From a virus: DNA of 30,085 nucleotides. The translations under genes were made by a program, and so were the position numbers. Location: the IMG/VR virus record IMGVR_UViG_3300036770_001511, positions 1 to 30,085 of that record, one strand, 5' to 3'. The notes under the pieces were generated by a model. That model searched no databases. It worked only from the letters and a program-made list of their open reading frames with translations, and was not told the DNA's origin. This document shows, piece after piece, positions 9,828-24,654 of this stretch (the first letter of the stretch is position 1; each line of letters starts with the position of its first letter).

Positions 9828-10679
9828 TCAGTTGCCTCCCACGATGCCGCGCCCCAGTGTCTCCACGATGGCATTCAGCCGCCGCTGCTCCCACAACTGC
9901 TCGTCTGCCTTCTTGATGATCTCGCGTGACGCTGCTGCGGGGTCGCCAGCGGCGAACTTCATCGTGCCGAACGCCGTGTCCACCTGCCCGTACGCCAGTT
10001 GCGTGCGCTGCGCGATCATCTGCGAACGCTGGTCCTGCTGCTGCCGGACCTGCTGGCGTCCCATCAATTCCGCGAACTCGTCGCGCAGCCCTGACACCAG
10101 ATTTTCGTTCGGCCCTATGGGAACGCCGGGAGTCGGAAGCCGAAACCGCGTTCCGTACATGACCGCGTCCATCATTTCGGACAGCGACTCCATGATGCCG
10201 ACGCCAGTCCCAGCATGGAACCGTTCCGCAAACTTGATCGGTCCCTTTCCCGCCCCGAACAGCGAGTCCTGGAGCATGGTGTAGAAGCCTTCCACGAAAC
10301 TGATTCCGGCTTCCTCTCCGTACGGCTTGAACAGGTCGGCTGCCTTCAGCGTTGCAGGCCCAAGCACCGGGATCATGCCGACGGCATCGCGCATGGTCCC
10401 GATGATGACCTCATCAAGGTCGATGCGCGCACCGAATTCCTTGGTCATGCGCTCGGCAAGGTTGCCGACCACATCCGCGACGGCGGCGGCAGTGCCGAGG
10501 GTCTTCAGCCCCTGCACGATGCCGGATCCGAACCGCCCCGTGGCGGCGTCCATCTTCTTGCCCATGTTCTGGGCCGTCTGGTTCACCTGCGCCTCTGCCT
10601 GCGCAAGTCCGCCGCCCAGCCCTGCGAGGTTGGTCAGGATGTCGATGGTTAGTGCGGCTGCGCCGCCTGCCGTACTCAT
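9828..10679 (-). CDS. Short tape-measure-like tail protein
   Basis: The product has 283 residues. The N-terminus (LTIDILTNLAGLGGGLAQA, then QVNQTAQNMGKKMDAATGRF) resembles the start of phage tape-measure proteins, followed by hydrophobic/glycine segments (IVQGLKTLGTAAAVADVVG; MRDAVGMIPVLGPATLKAA) and long helical, Gln/Glu-rich stretches at the C-terminus (MGRQQVRQQQDQRSQMIAQ). It lies right after the tail-chaperone frameshift region, the usual tape-measure position. At roughly 0.15 nm per residue it would set a tail of only about 40 nm. The ATG at 10679 overlaps the previous stop (ATGA) and has AAGGA upstream. If the tail is longer, another protein must share the role. Confidence 0.8.
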   Translation of the reverse strand: MSTAGGAAALTIDILTNLAGLGGGLAQAEAQVNQTAQNMGKKMDAATGRFGSGIVQGLKTLGTAAAVADVVGNLAERMTKEFGARIDLDEVIIGTMRDAVGMIPVLGPATLKAADLFKPYGEEAGISFVEGFYTMLQDSLFGAGKGPIKFAERFHAGTGVGIMESLSEMMDAVMYGTRFRLPTPGVPIGPNENLVSGLRDEFAELMGRQQVRQQQDQRSQMIAQRTQLAYGQVDTAFGTMKFAAGDPAAASREIIKKADEQLWEQRRLNAIVETLGRGIVGGN

Positions 10680-11277
10680 CCGTGGATCCTTCGCATCTCT
10701 GCCTCAACTCTAGCGCGGTGGTCGGCAGCAGGGTCCATACCGGGCTGCTCGTCGCGCAGCAGCGCATTCAGGGCGTCTGTCCATTCCCTGATGTCATCCA
10801 GCGTCAGGTCCATAGGGTTGCCCAGACCCGGCAGGTAGCGCGCTATGGTCGCGGCTGCGCGCCGCCAGTCCTCGTCGGACGGCGGCTCTACGGGTTTCCC
10901 TGGCTGGCGTCCTGCGTCGGCTTGATGTCCCAGCCGCAGCAGCGCATGGCAAGCACGCACACGCTGTCCGGGTCCATGCCCTCCAGCGCGGCGTCGAGCG
11001 CGGGTGCTGCAATGCCGGACCGCTCCGCGCTGCGCGACAGCACGGACAGCGCGCCGTCGTAGGTCTTGCACATGTCGATCAGGGTCGAGTACGCGGATTT
11101 CCTGCTCGCGTACTCCTGCGCGGCCAGCGCCATGTCGGTCGCGGTCGCATTGGCGCGGCGCAACGCGGACTCATGCTCCTGCTGCCGAGCGGCGAGCCAT
11201 GTGGCGGTCAGTTCTGTCCAGTCGCGGAGGGTCAGGAAGCGCAGCGTGAGGCTGCCGACGGTCACGGGTGCTTTCAT
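10676..11277 (-). CDS. Tail assembly chaperone GT fusion made by -1 frameshift
   Basis: Reading starts at ATG 11277 as the G-type protein. At the heptamer GGGAAAC (10900-10894) a -1 shift would continue into the overlapping frame as ...SQGN-PVEPPSDEDWRR and end at 10676, giving 200 residues. The 602-nt span plus one re-read base is an exact multiple of three. The downstream frame has no start of its own with a convincing site; its upstream part is just a shadow of the G frame. In lambda and many siphoviruses the G/GT ratio chaperones tail-tube assembly around the tape measure. The location between the major tail protein and the tape measure fits exactly. Confidence 0.88.
10861..10900 (-). promoter_or_regulatory. 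Programmed -1 ribosomal frameshift signal
   Basis: On the minus strand the slippery heptamer G-GGA-AAC is in the zero frame at 10900-10894. A 7-nt spacer holding the zero-frame TAG stop follows (10893-10887). Then comes a hairpin at 10886-10861: GCCGCC plus GTCC pairs with GGAC plus GGCGGC, about 10 bp with one bulged base and a 6-nt loop region. Slip site, spacer length and stem match canonical bacterial/phage -1 signals. Confidence 0.9.
10888..11277 (-). CDS. Tail assembly chaperone, G-type (zero-frame product)
   Basis: The product has 129 residues beginning MKAPVTVGSLTLRFLTLRDW. It is helical after the first strands (AARQQEHESALRRANATATDM, ALAAQEYASRKSAYSTLIDMC), as expected for gpG-like chaperones. 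It ends KPTQDASQGNP just past the slippery site. The start overlaps the previous stop as ATGA. It is the major product; a fraction of ribosomes shift to make the 200-aa fusion. Identification rests on gene order and the frameshift signal more than on sequence identity. Confidence 0.85.
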   Translation of the reverse strand: MKAPVTVGSLTLRFLTLRDWTELTATWLAARQQEHESALRRANATATDMALAAQEYASRKSAYSTLIDMCKTYDGALSVLSRSAERSGIAAPALDAALEGMDPDSVCVLAMRCCGWDIKPTQDASQGNP

Positions 11278-11561
11278 AGTGTCCGGGATCGTAACCAGTC
11301 CGTGTCCACGCGCACGCACATCTCCACATCCTTGCGGCGGTGGGCGGTGATCCACTCAAGGGTCATGGGCGACAGCCGCAGCGAGAACGCCGCAGCGCGG
11401 ATCGCCTCGTCCTTGGTCACATGATTGCTGACGTATGCCTTGAACGGCTTGCCTGCGTTGACCCCGGTCACCACCCAGTCGGTCTCGGTGGTGACGGCAT
11501 CAATCGGGCAGCCGGGAATGGGCAGGCCGACTATGGTCGCGTCCCGGCCCATGCTGACCAT
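11274..11561 (-). CDS. Hypothetical 95-aa protein next to tail chaperone
   Basis: The product has 95 residues beginning MVSMGRDATIVGLPIPGCPI, with VVTGVNAGKPFKAYVSNHVTKDEAIRAAAFS split by beta and helix parts, and ends RVDTDWLRSRTL. The start overlaps the stop of the major tail protein as TGATG and the stop overlaps the next start, so it is tightly coupled to tail genes. A small tail-assembly accessory role is likely; I recognise no domain. Confidence 0.75.
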   Translation of the reverse strand: MVSMGRDATIVGLPIPGCPIDAVTTETDWVVTGVNAGKPFKAYVSNHVTKDEAIRAAAFSLRLSPMTLEWITAHRRKDVEMCVRVDTDWLRSRTL

Positions 11562-11986
11562 CAGACCGCCCAGACGATGGTGAACGGGCTGTTGGTCCCG
11601 TTCGTGTGGGACAGGCTGAAGTTGAAGGTCACGGTGGCGTCGCCGCCCTTGCTGCTCGCCAGCGCGACCGAGTCGCAGACGCCGTTGAACACGATGTGGT
11701 TCGTGCCGCTGGTGTTGCTGCGCGCCGCAAGCGTGATGGCCGCTCCGGTCAGGTTGGTGTGGCAGACCAGTTCGCCCAGCGTGGTGTTGGCAAAGCCTGA
11801 CTTGGTGTCGATCACGCCGCCTGCGCTGCCCGTCAGGTCGTACACGCCCAGCAGGCGCTTGCGTCCGGTGTCCGTGAACTCCGTGACATCCGAGGACGCA
11901 CGGGTGATCGTCGCGCTCCAGGTGTTCAGGCTGGCGACGATGCCGTTTCCGCTCACGTTGCCCGTATTGCCGTTCAGTGCTGCCAT
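11561..11986 (-). CDS. Major tail (tube) protein
   Basis: The product has 141 residues with the beta-rich composition of siphovirus tail-tube proteins: NGIVASLNTWSATITRASSDV, EFTDTGRKRLLGVYDLTGSA, GELVCHTNLTGAAITLAARS, DATVTFNFSLSHTN. The early 'W.a.i' strand, the 'v.t.f' segment and the 'G..D..GsaG' turn are typical. It lies just before the tail chaperones, and GAGG precedes the ATG by 7 nt. It is shorter than lambda V and closer to the compact tubes of other phages. The call rests on order and composition. Confidence 0.82.
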   Translation of the reverse strand: MAALNGNTGNVSGNGIVASLNTWSATITRASSDVTEFTDTGRKRLLGVYDLTGSAGGVIDTKSGFANTTLGELVCHTNLTGAAITLAARSNTSGTNHIVFNGVCDSVALASSKGGDATVTFNFSLSHTNGTNSPFTIVWAV

Positions 11987-19637: not shown

Positions 19638-21263
19638 TTATGCGACGAGCGCGAACGTGCCGGAAGTTGTGAAGGTGTGGATCGTGTAGCCGCCGCTGCT
19701 TGTGACCGTGCCGCCCGTAGCGCGCTGCGCGCCGAGGTAGCGCACGACCACGATTCCGGAGCCGCCGGAACCGCCTGCATAATTCGTTGCACCAACCGCG
19801 CCTCCGCCACCACCGCCGCCGCCTGTGTTTGCCGAGCCGGGAGAGCCGTTTGCATCGTCGTTAGCACTTCCGCCTCCATCTGTGGCAACACCGCTGCGAC
19901 CTGTCCCAAACCGTCCGCCACCTCCACCGCCACCGCGTGCCACGCTTGTCCCTGTTATCGAACTTGAAAGACCTGCGCCGCCATCTCCAAAGGTTCCGCT
20001 TCCGGTGTTGTCTCCACCATTTGCGCCAACCGCCCCAGCGCCGCCTCCGCCCGCGCTTGTTGTGTTTCCCGTTGTCGGATTTGCGACCGATCCTCCGTCG
20101 TTTCCTTCTCCCGCAGTCCCTGCGCCGCCCGTTCCGTTATTAGATGCTACTGAACTTGAGATTCCGCCACCGCCTGAACCACCTGCATTTCCGTCGATAG
20201 TCGCTACGATTCCATTTGAACCGCCGCCGCCTCCGCCGACCGTTGAAATAGAAGTGAATGACGATGCAGTTCCATTGCTTCCCTTGACCGTCGATCCTGC
20301 TGGCGCTCCGGCTCCGCCGCCGCCAACCGTCACGGTGTATGACGTTCCGCTAGCAAGCGAAACGAGTGTTCCGCCAACATTCGTTCTGTATCCGCCTGCG
20401 CCTCCACCACCACCAAAACGACGCCCACCACCACCGCCACCCGCCACGACGAGGTACTCGACCTCAAGCGTTTCGGGCTGGAACGTCTGCCACGCCGTGC
20501 CGTTGTAGTACTCAAGGCGGCTGCTTGTGCTGTTGTGCCGGATCATGCCTGCCGCAGGCGTGCCGGGACGCTGCGCGATTGTGCCGCCGGGAATCGTGAT
20601 CGCGCCCGTGCTGGTGAAGGTCGCGTTGCCGCCGACCGTCATCGCCTTGGCGATGCCGACGCCGCCCTCGACGATCAGCGCGCCCGTGGCGACCGTCGTG
20701 CTGTCGGTCTTGTCGGTGACCGTGACAGGCGCATTCGCCGTCGCCGCCGCGTCCATGTTCACCGTGCCGTTGAAGTCGGCAGCGCCGTTGACCGTCAGCG
20801 TGTCGGTGATCGTCACATCGTCACCGAGCGCAAAGTCGCCGTCTACCTGAAGGTCGCCCTTGATGCGCGTGTTGCCGCGCACGGACAGCGTTTCAAACTC
20901 GGGATTGACGAGAACAGGCGCGCCGCCTGCGGGACCGCGTGCGCCGCGAGGTCCAGCGGGACCGCGTTCCCCGGGTTCGCCCTTCTCGCCGGGTTCGCCT
21001 TGGGGACCGGGGACGGTCGAGTCCAAGCCGTCGCGGCCGTCGCGGCCGGGTGGGCCTTGCTCGCCTTGTGGGCCTTGGGGACCGGGTACGCCCTGTGGAC
21101 CCACCGGACCCTGCTTGATGACCGCAAGAGCCTTGTGCGCGCCCTGCGCCTCTTCGCGTGCGGCGTCGGCTGCGAGCCGTGCGCGCTCGGCGCGCTCGCT
21201 CGCCTTCTTGGCGAGAGCGGCTGCGAGGACTGCTGGCGGGATCATCGGGTCAGGTGTGGTCAT
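19638..21263 (-). CDS. Collagen-like, glycine-rich tail fibre/adhesin
   Basis: The product has 541 residues. Residues 14-50 are a helical, likely coiled-coil start ([19 protein letters not shown]). Residues 52-115 are collagen-like Gly-X-Y repeats ([13 protein letters not shown] and [16 protein letters not shown]), interrupted once by LDSTV at about 80-84. Residues 120-265 are beta-rich, with [20 protein letters not shown] and TDTLTVNG resembling a fibre shaft, and end [15 protein letters not shown]. Residues about 275-515 are a glycine-rich domain with runs of 5-8 Gly that may pack as polyglycine II helices, closing with [11 protein letters not shown]. Such domains occur in phage adhesins. 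AAGGAA precedes the ATG. Its place between portal and minor head genes is unusual. Confidence 0.88.
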
Positions 21264-23445: not shown

Positions 23446-24654
23446 TCAGATGATCCGTATGTCGAGGGTCTGCGTAGCCGCGAGCGACAGGTGACGCACT
23501 GCAAGCGCCAAGGCGCACACGCCGTCATCGTGCAAGCCAGGTGGCGCTTCATAGCGTACGCCTGTGCGCGTGTGTTCGTAGCCGAACGCCTCCAGTTCGG
23601 CGCGCAGCCAGCCGTCCGGGATCCTGACGCGGCCCTGCTGGATCCACGCCGCCAAGCCTTCCATGAGTTGCTGCTTGCTGCCGCTGGTGAACTTGAACCC
23701 CTCGACGCAGGGCAGTTCGCGCTGGAGGTCTTCCACGATGGGGTCACCGACTCCGGTCGAGTCGATCAGGGCTGGCGTGTCACCGACCAGTTGCGCGAGC
23801 CGCTGGCGCGTTTCCGACCACTGCCCCTGCCACCGCTCAAGTGCCACAACTGACCCATTGGCCTCCAATCCGACCGCAACTGTCCAGTCTTGGCTCTTTG
23901 CGAGGTCCACGCCCCAGACCGCTGGCTTGCCTGTCCCCATCGGCCCGATGCAGCGTGCGATGGCGTCGATGCCAAACGGGTTCAGGCCGTCCTCGCTCGG
24001 CTCGGCCAGGTACAACTCCTTGAACACGCTGGCAGGCAGGTCGCGCTGGGCTGCCTCGACTTCCTCGCGCTTGATGATGCCGCCCTCGACGGCATCCCAT
24101 GCCGTCAGTCGGTGGTAGCCCACATCGCCTGCCGGGTTCTGCAAGGCGCGCTGCGCCATCGCATGGACCCAGTTCTTGCGCCCCCGCACGTTGCCGATGA
24201 TGCGAACGGGTCCGCGTGTGGCCGTCAGGGTCGAGCGGACGGCGTGCCACGCGTCCTCCTTCATGCGCGTCGCCTCGTCCAGGACAGCGCCGTAGACATC
24301 CTCGCCGTAGAGGTTGTCGGGGTCATCCCCTGACTTGAACCAGATCCGGCTCCCGGACGCCAGTTCGATCCACATTTCCGTATCGTGGCTGCGCCAGACG
24401 CGTTTGGCCTCGTCAGCCTGCCGCAGGGCGGCCTTCATGCGGTCGAAGGCGATCTTGGACTGGCTGAACACGGGAGCCACCCACCAGTAGGCATGGCTGC
24501 CCTTGGTGTCATTCCACGCGTTGCCCAGCAGCCAGATCAGGCAGCCAGCCGTCTTGCCGCACTTGGTCGCGGCTTCGATCACGACGATCCGGCGCGGGTC
24601 GTGTATCGCCTCGTACTGCCGTCCGTAGAGGGCTGGCAGGCGCAGTTCGACCAT
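23446..24654 (-). CDS. terL: Terminase large subunit
   Basis: The product has 402 residues. The ATPase domain has the P-loop IEAATKCGKT (about 28-35, a degenerate Walker A with Lys34-Thr35) and the Walker B VYGAVLDEAT (Asp126-Glu127), with a coupling region GPVRIIGNVRGRKN. The RNase H-like nuclease domain shows GVDLAKSQDWT (Asp250), ALIDSTGVGDP (Asp298) and LHDDGVCALALA (Asp376/377) as metal-binding acids. It powers packaging through the portal and cuts DNA at the end. The start overlaps the previous stop (TGATG) and the stop is 3 nt before the portal gene. It is compact compared with the 450-550 aa usual length but has all motifs. Confidence 0.95.
   Translation of the reverse strand: MVELRLPALYGRQYEAIHDPRRIVVIEAATKCGKTAGCLIWLLGNAWNDTKGSHAYWWVAPVFSQSKIAFDRMKAALRQADEAKRVWRSHDTEMWIELASGSRIWFKSGDDPDNLYGEDVYGAVLDEATRMKEDAWHAVRSTLTATRGPVRIIGNVRGRKNWVHAMAQRALQNPAGDVGYHRLTAWDAVEGGIIKREEVEAAQRDLPASVFKELYLAEPSEDGLNPFGIDAIARCIGPMGTGKPAVWGVDLAKSQDWTVAVGLEANGSVVALERWQGQWSETRQRLAQLVGDTPALIDSTGVGDPIVEDLQRELPCVEGFKFTSGSKQQLMEGLAAWIQQGRVRIPDGWLRAELEAFGYEHTRTGVRYEAPPGLHDDGVCALALAVRHLSLAATQTLDIRII

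Follow-up and report, generated by a model that had tools for sequence, protein, structure and literature searches.

In phage lambda, the slippery heptamer is GGGAAAG. In E. coli dnaX, a heptamer works together with a 3′ stem-loop stimulator and a 5′ Shine-Dalgarno-like stimulator. The lambda G and GT proteins are the short and long products of a -1 frameshift, and their genes are located between those of the major tail protein and the tape measure (PMC5009743). Frameshifting in certain tailed phages seems to proceed without stimulators, according to a review (PMC5009743), and downstream structure is rare at phage tail frameshifts, with none in P2-like phages (PMC3091744). A G_GGA_AAC shift site is found in the tail genes g-t of Haloarcula virus HCTV-1 (PMC5009743), and the tail G-T genes gp18/gp19 of Burkholderia phage KL1 contain GGGAAAC, an adjacent stop, and a predicted downstream stem-loop (PMC3483164).

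Here we analyze a stretch of viral DNA of 30,085 nucleotides (IMG/VR record IMGVR_UViG_3300036770_001511, positions 1 to 30,085), referred to as the window. Sequence evidence from the window and its relatives indicates that this uncultivated tailed phage very probably uses a -1 programmed ribosomal frameshift of the lambda G/GT type. The locus is a well-supported addition to the G/GT frameshifts, from a phage group in which no cultured relative is close enough to be detected at these genes. A tail frameshift whose 3′ stem is both strong and conserved in evolution is, moreover, rarely seen.

Two overlapping reading frames and the heptamer at their junction

The reading frames, the slippery site, and the two candidate flanking genes are as follows.

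11561..11986, minus strand: major tail protein candidate, upstream (weak match to phrog_9522 major tail protein, E 0.007)
10888..11277, minus strand: G-like ORF in the zero frame, 129 aa, from ATG 11277 to the stop TAG 10890-10888
10894..10900, minus strand: slippery heptamer G_GGA_AAC, P site GGA and A site AAC, in the frame of the ORF with ATG 11277
10887..10893, minus strand: 7-nt spacer CCGTAGA, holding the zero-frame TAG 10890-10888
10676..10894, minus strand: T-like -1 extension, 72 aa (PVEPPSDEDW...EAEMRRIHG), with the stop TGA 10678-10676
9828..10679, minus strand: candidate tape measure, the next gene, 283 aa (weak match to phrog_2854 tape measure, E 0.046)

A sequence-only reading of this locus had described G-GGA-AAC in frame, a 7-nt spacer, and a stop within the spacer. 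All of these are present on the minus strand, and the figures given in that reading were all correct when rechecked there. A single codon, CCG, separates the heptamer from the zero-frame TAG. The product of a -1 shift is a 200-aa fusion (128 + 72), and it ends on the start of the next gene as had been claimed, with TGA 10678-10676 overlapping ATG 10679-10677. The site follows the X_XXY_YYZ pattern, with an in-frame heptamer inside the overlap of two frames in both the window and its relatives, and a 10-bp stem begins 7 nt past the heptamer, inside the 5-9 nt range for a 3′ structure.

In-frame X_XXA_AAN heptamers are few in the window, just 3 in 19 ORFs (6100 codons), so chance is an unlikely source of one at a gene end, in the right frame, and with a long -1 frame following. 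The others are a GGGAAAG at 10251, within the candidate tape measure, and a GGGAAAC at 20070. Both were rejected as shift sites: their -1 frames open 145 and 67 codons, respectively, with translations that resemble frame noise. The heptamer at 20070 is contained in a 541-aa ORF (19638-21263, minus strand) that has tail-fibre-like and unknown-function profile matches and lies between the portal and head morphogenesis genes. A search for a 5′ stimulator found AGG-like motifs upstream of the G/GT heptamer, and a dnaX-like Shine-Dalgarno-like stimulator was rejected, as binding energies were no different from those of codon-resampled sequence.

The ATG of G sits inside the stop of the preceding gene (CTATGA, 11274-11279, minus strand), and the GT stop is inside the start of the next gene (GGATGAG; ATGA, 10676-10679, minus strand). 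Such overlaps at both ends of G/GT suggest possible translational coupling. Two relatives, L074 and L079, have different stop-start overlaps (TAATG, TGATG).

Relatives retain the heptamer and both frames

IMG/VR was searched for relatives twice with G and once each with T and the neighboring major tail protein candidate, the last search being independent of the frameshift signal. In the major tail protein search, 31 of the 34 loci examined reach the site, and the in-frame heptamer is found in 31 of these 31. The 31 related IMG/VR contigs and the window together represent 23 distinct fusion proteins, and in every one of these contigs, as in the window, an X_XXA_AA(C/A) heptamer is retained in frame and neither reading frame is lost. 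The G homologues in IMG/VR are 61-90% identical. The sequence-only reading had proposed an alignment of related phages as a check on the heptamer and stem; the heptamer is kept at every site reached, and the stem shows compensatory changes. Relatives that lack the heptamer and have separate starts for both frames had been named as contrary evidence, and no such relative occurs among the 31 loci.

These sequences also bear on whether T could be a separate gene with its own start, the heptamer being incidental. The -1 frame of the window does contain potential starts (relative to the slip point, GTG at -177 and -66 nt and ATG at +81), and mechanical ORF calling yields a 131-aa ORF beginning with GTG. 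However, no start for the -1 frame is conserved across all members, since L030 has none before +81 and L023 has only one, at -168. Translation from +81 would omit PPSDxDW and ARYxPG, the most conserved N-terminal part of T, and the heptamer is retained in every relative, even across a switch from GGG to CCC. Because no independent start is conserved, full-length T has frameshifting as its only conserved route, and we consider a separately started T very improbable. Variability at the three codon positions is 0.249/0.148/0.432 in the -1 frame past the slip site and 0.246/0.178/0.435 in the G gene; on sequence comparison, the -1 frame between the stem and the first internal ATG varies like a coding frame.

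In the phylogenetic tree, the GGGAAA and CCCAAA sequences form two clades, and the branch separating them has a support of 100/100. The clade of the window (16 distinct signals and L079) has GGGAAAC, in one case GGGAAAA, with a 7-nt spacer that contains the stop, followed by a stem of 10 bp or more. The first six heptamer bases are unchanged throughout this clade, and the spacer stop is TAG or TGA, located immediately after the heptamer in L049. The sister clade has CCCAAAC or CCCAAAA, at 8 of the 31 loci. The X bases have switched together, from GGG to CCC, so that tandem slippage stays possible.

Stems in the CCCAAA clade differ in sequence from those in the clade of the window. In one pair of this clade, L070/L074, the stem is strong and the stop is at +3. 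In L063, L064, L065, L066, L068, and L082, the heptamer is CCCAAAC or CCCAAAA and the zero-frame stop is 27 nt past it; the stems of this subclade are at most modestly, and not clearly, better than codon-resampled sequence. Stem strength is therefore not universal, and placement of the stop within the spacer, though typical of the window's clade, is not required, as one sister subclade has its stop at +27.

A separate DNA-pattern search returned L088, L099, and L101, which have GGGAAAT without a strong stem and were judged unrelated, and L092, a noise match. Named phages contained nothing matching G, T, the major tail protein candidate, or the gene preceding G, and 84,980 prokaryote (bacterial and archaeal) genomes yielded no relative. 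The large terminase (23446-24654, minus strand) has its best named relatives at about 30-36% identity, for example in Tunturiibacter, Thermus, and Halorubrum phages; having only distant named relatives, it places the phage far from cultured groups.

A strong stem-loop downstream of the heptamer

The spacer is followed by a stem-loop with these parts.

10861..10886, minus strand: 3′ stem-loop, candidate stimulator, 10 bp with one bulged T (U in RNA)
10886-10877, minus strand: 5′ arm of the stem, GCCGCCGTCC
10876-10872, minus strand: loop GACGA, 5 nt
10871-10868, minus strand: 3′ arm of the stem, GGAC, continued after the bulged T (10867) by GGCGGC (10866-10861)

The stem of about 10 bp reported in the sequence-only reading is present, with one bulged T that had been left out of that description. 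Its computed folding energy is about -20 kcal/mol. The chance of such a stem was estimated by keeping the downstream protein fixed and resampling synonymous codons from the usage of the window. An equally stable stem appeared in 0.9% of the draws for the window (z -3.0), and all 16 distinct signals of the GGGAAA clade have z between -2.2 and -4.3 in stem stability against codon-resampled sequence.

The six lower pairs of the stem are invariant in the 16 sequences, including four third-codon positions, and the third-codon positions just outside the lower stem vary freely in the same sequences. As these six pairs show no variation, they neither back nor contradict pairing by covariation. In the upper stem, changes are mostly matched, although the covariation is modest (3 cells). 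Paired changes occur in L001 (G-C to U-A, where one side alters the amino acid) and in L009 and L029 (C-G to A-U), and wobble pairs are found in L011, L030, and L049. The bulge is relocated in L007, L028, and L042, whose stems retain 10-11 bp, and the stem of L024 has 11 bp and is unbulged. An Rfam search found no match. On these sequence data, a stem that is both strong and conserved in the window's clade is the one departure from ordinary tail frameshift signals.

Transcriptional slippage, or an error in sequencing or assembly, would likewise join the two frames. For efficient polymerase slippage, GGGAAAC is too short and too mixed, and conservation of a 7-nt spacer and a stem is characteristic of slippage by ribosomes, not of transcriptional slippage. 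The identical frame relation recurs in independent assemblies from many metagenomes, which argues against an error. We regard these explanations as extremely improbable.

Gene order and predicted function

The genes of the window are ordered as terminase, portal, head morphogenesis, protease, major head protein, head-tail adaptor, neck, major tail protein candidate, a small gene, G/GT, and the 283-aa ORF. A two-product gene with T in the -1 frame is thus located between the major tail protein and the tape measure, as expected for G/GT, with both flanks weakly identified. From gene order and architecture, we infer that G and GT are probably tail assembly chaperones.

Profile and sequence searches of G and T against known tail chaperones and families found no match. 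The AlphaFold model of G is mostly helical and confident (pLDDT 86.5), and its only good structural match is an uncharacterised phage protein, A0A6J5QV40 (TM 0.82). The G model has no convincing neighbor among solved structures; solved-structure matches to glucoamylase and helical bundles, with E 0.03 or worse or low Z, were taken as noise. The confidence of the T model is low (pLDDT 67.8). For the labels "tail chaperone" and "tape measure" that had been assigned to these genes earlier, the position fits, but the profile, sequence, and solved-structure searches gave no strong match.

The frameshift could be real and the genes something other than tail assembly chaperones, a reading that is in keeping with the missing profile and solved-structure matches and with the weak matches of the tape measure and major tail protein candidates. 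However, the gene order and the two-product architecture match G/GT, and the stop of the C-terminal extension falls on the next gene's start. A non-chaperone function is therefore unlikely in our assessment.

At only 283 aa (215-305 aa in relatives), the candidate tape measure would correspond to a short tail. Conservation is seen at its N-terminus (LTID...LG.GL.QAEAQV...MG), whereas its middle is very variable.

Discussion

The reading of this locus as a G/GT-type -1 frameshift is supported by the frames, the conserved heptamer, the compensatory changes in the stem, and the gene order. In the mechanism we propose, most ribosomes would read GGA-AAC-CCG and stop at TAG, releasing the 129-aa G-like protein. 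A minority would be paused by the 10-bp hairpin 7 nt downstream while GGA occupies the P site and AAC the A site, re-pair one base back on GGG and AAA, and read on through the hairpin to give the 200-aa GT-like fusion; the ratio of the two proteins would then be fixed. If the lambda analogy applies, G would coat the tape measure protein, with the T portion of GT recruiting the major tail protein. We infer slippage in the cell, its efficiency, and the pausing role of the stem from the sequence features described above.

The sister clades, with their different heptamers, form a natural experiment in which the tuning of signal strength to protein ratio can be compared. It is conceivable, though rather doubtful, that the strong conserved hairpin drives GT:G to an unusually high ratio to suit a short tape measure that requires fewer copies of G for each GT, and that the GGGAAA/CCCAAA split, in which stems and stop positions also differ, records the natural replacement of one frameshift signal by another while the site stayed fixed. 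Only the conserved strong stem and the heptamer switch between clades go beyond the routine.

The window resembles lambda G/GT in the -1 direction, the two products, the G-rich/A-rich heptamer, and the gene position, the flanks in the window being weakly identified. The sequence-only reading had likened the heptamer to that of lambda, and the two do share this common type; the A site holds AAC in the window and AAG in lambda. The window further differs from lambda in its strong conserved 3′ stem-loop and its spacer stop, and profile searches found no protein match between them. KL1 shares GGGAAAC, a stop right after the heptamer, and a proposed downstream stem-loop, but its downstream fold is weak when refolded here (-5.8 kcal/mol for 45 nt, against -23.3 in the window), an extra gene precedes its tape measure, and no protein similarity to the window was found. 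HCTV-1 has the same G_GGA_AAC in its tail genes, but it is an archaeal virus, and no protein similarity to it was found in the phage collection. E. coli dnaX likewise combines a heptamer with a 3′ stem-loop, but it also has a 5′ Shine-Dalgarno-like stimulator, for which no counterpart is supported in the window. Every part of the window signal is thus already known, and its combination with a strong conserved stem is unusual, not new.
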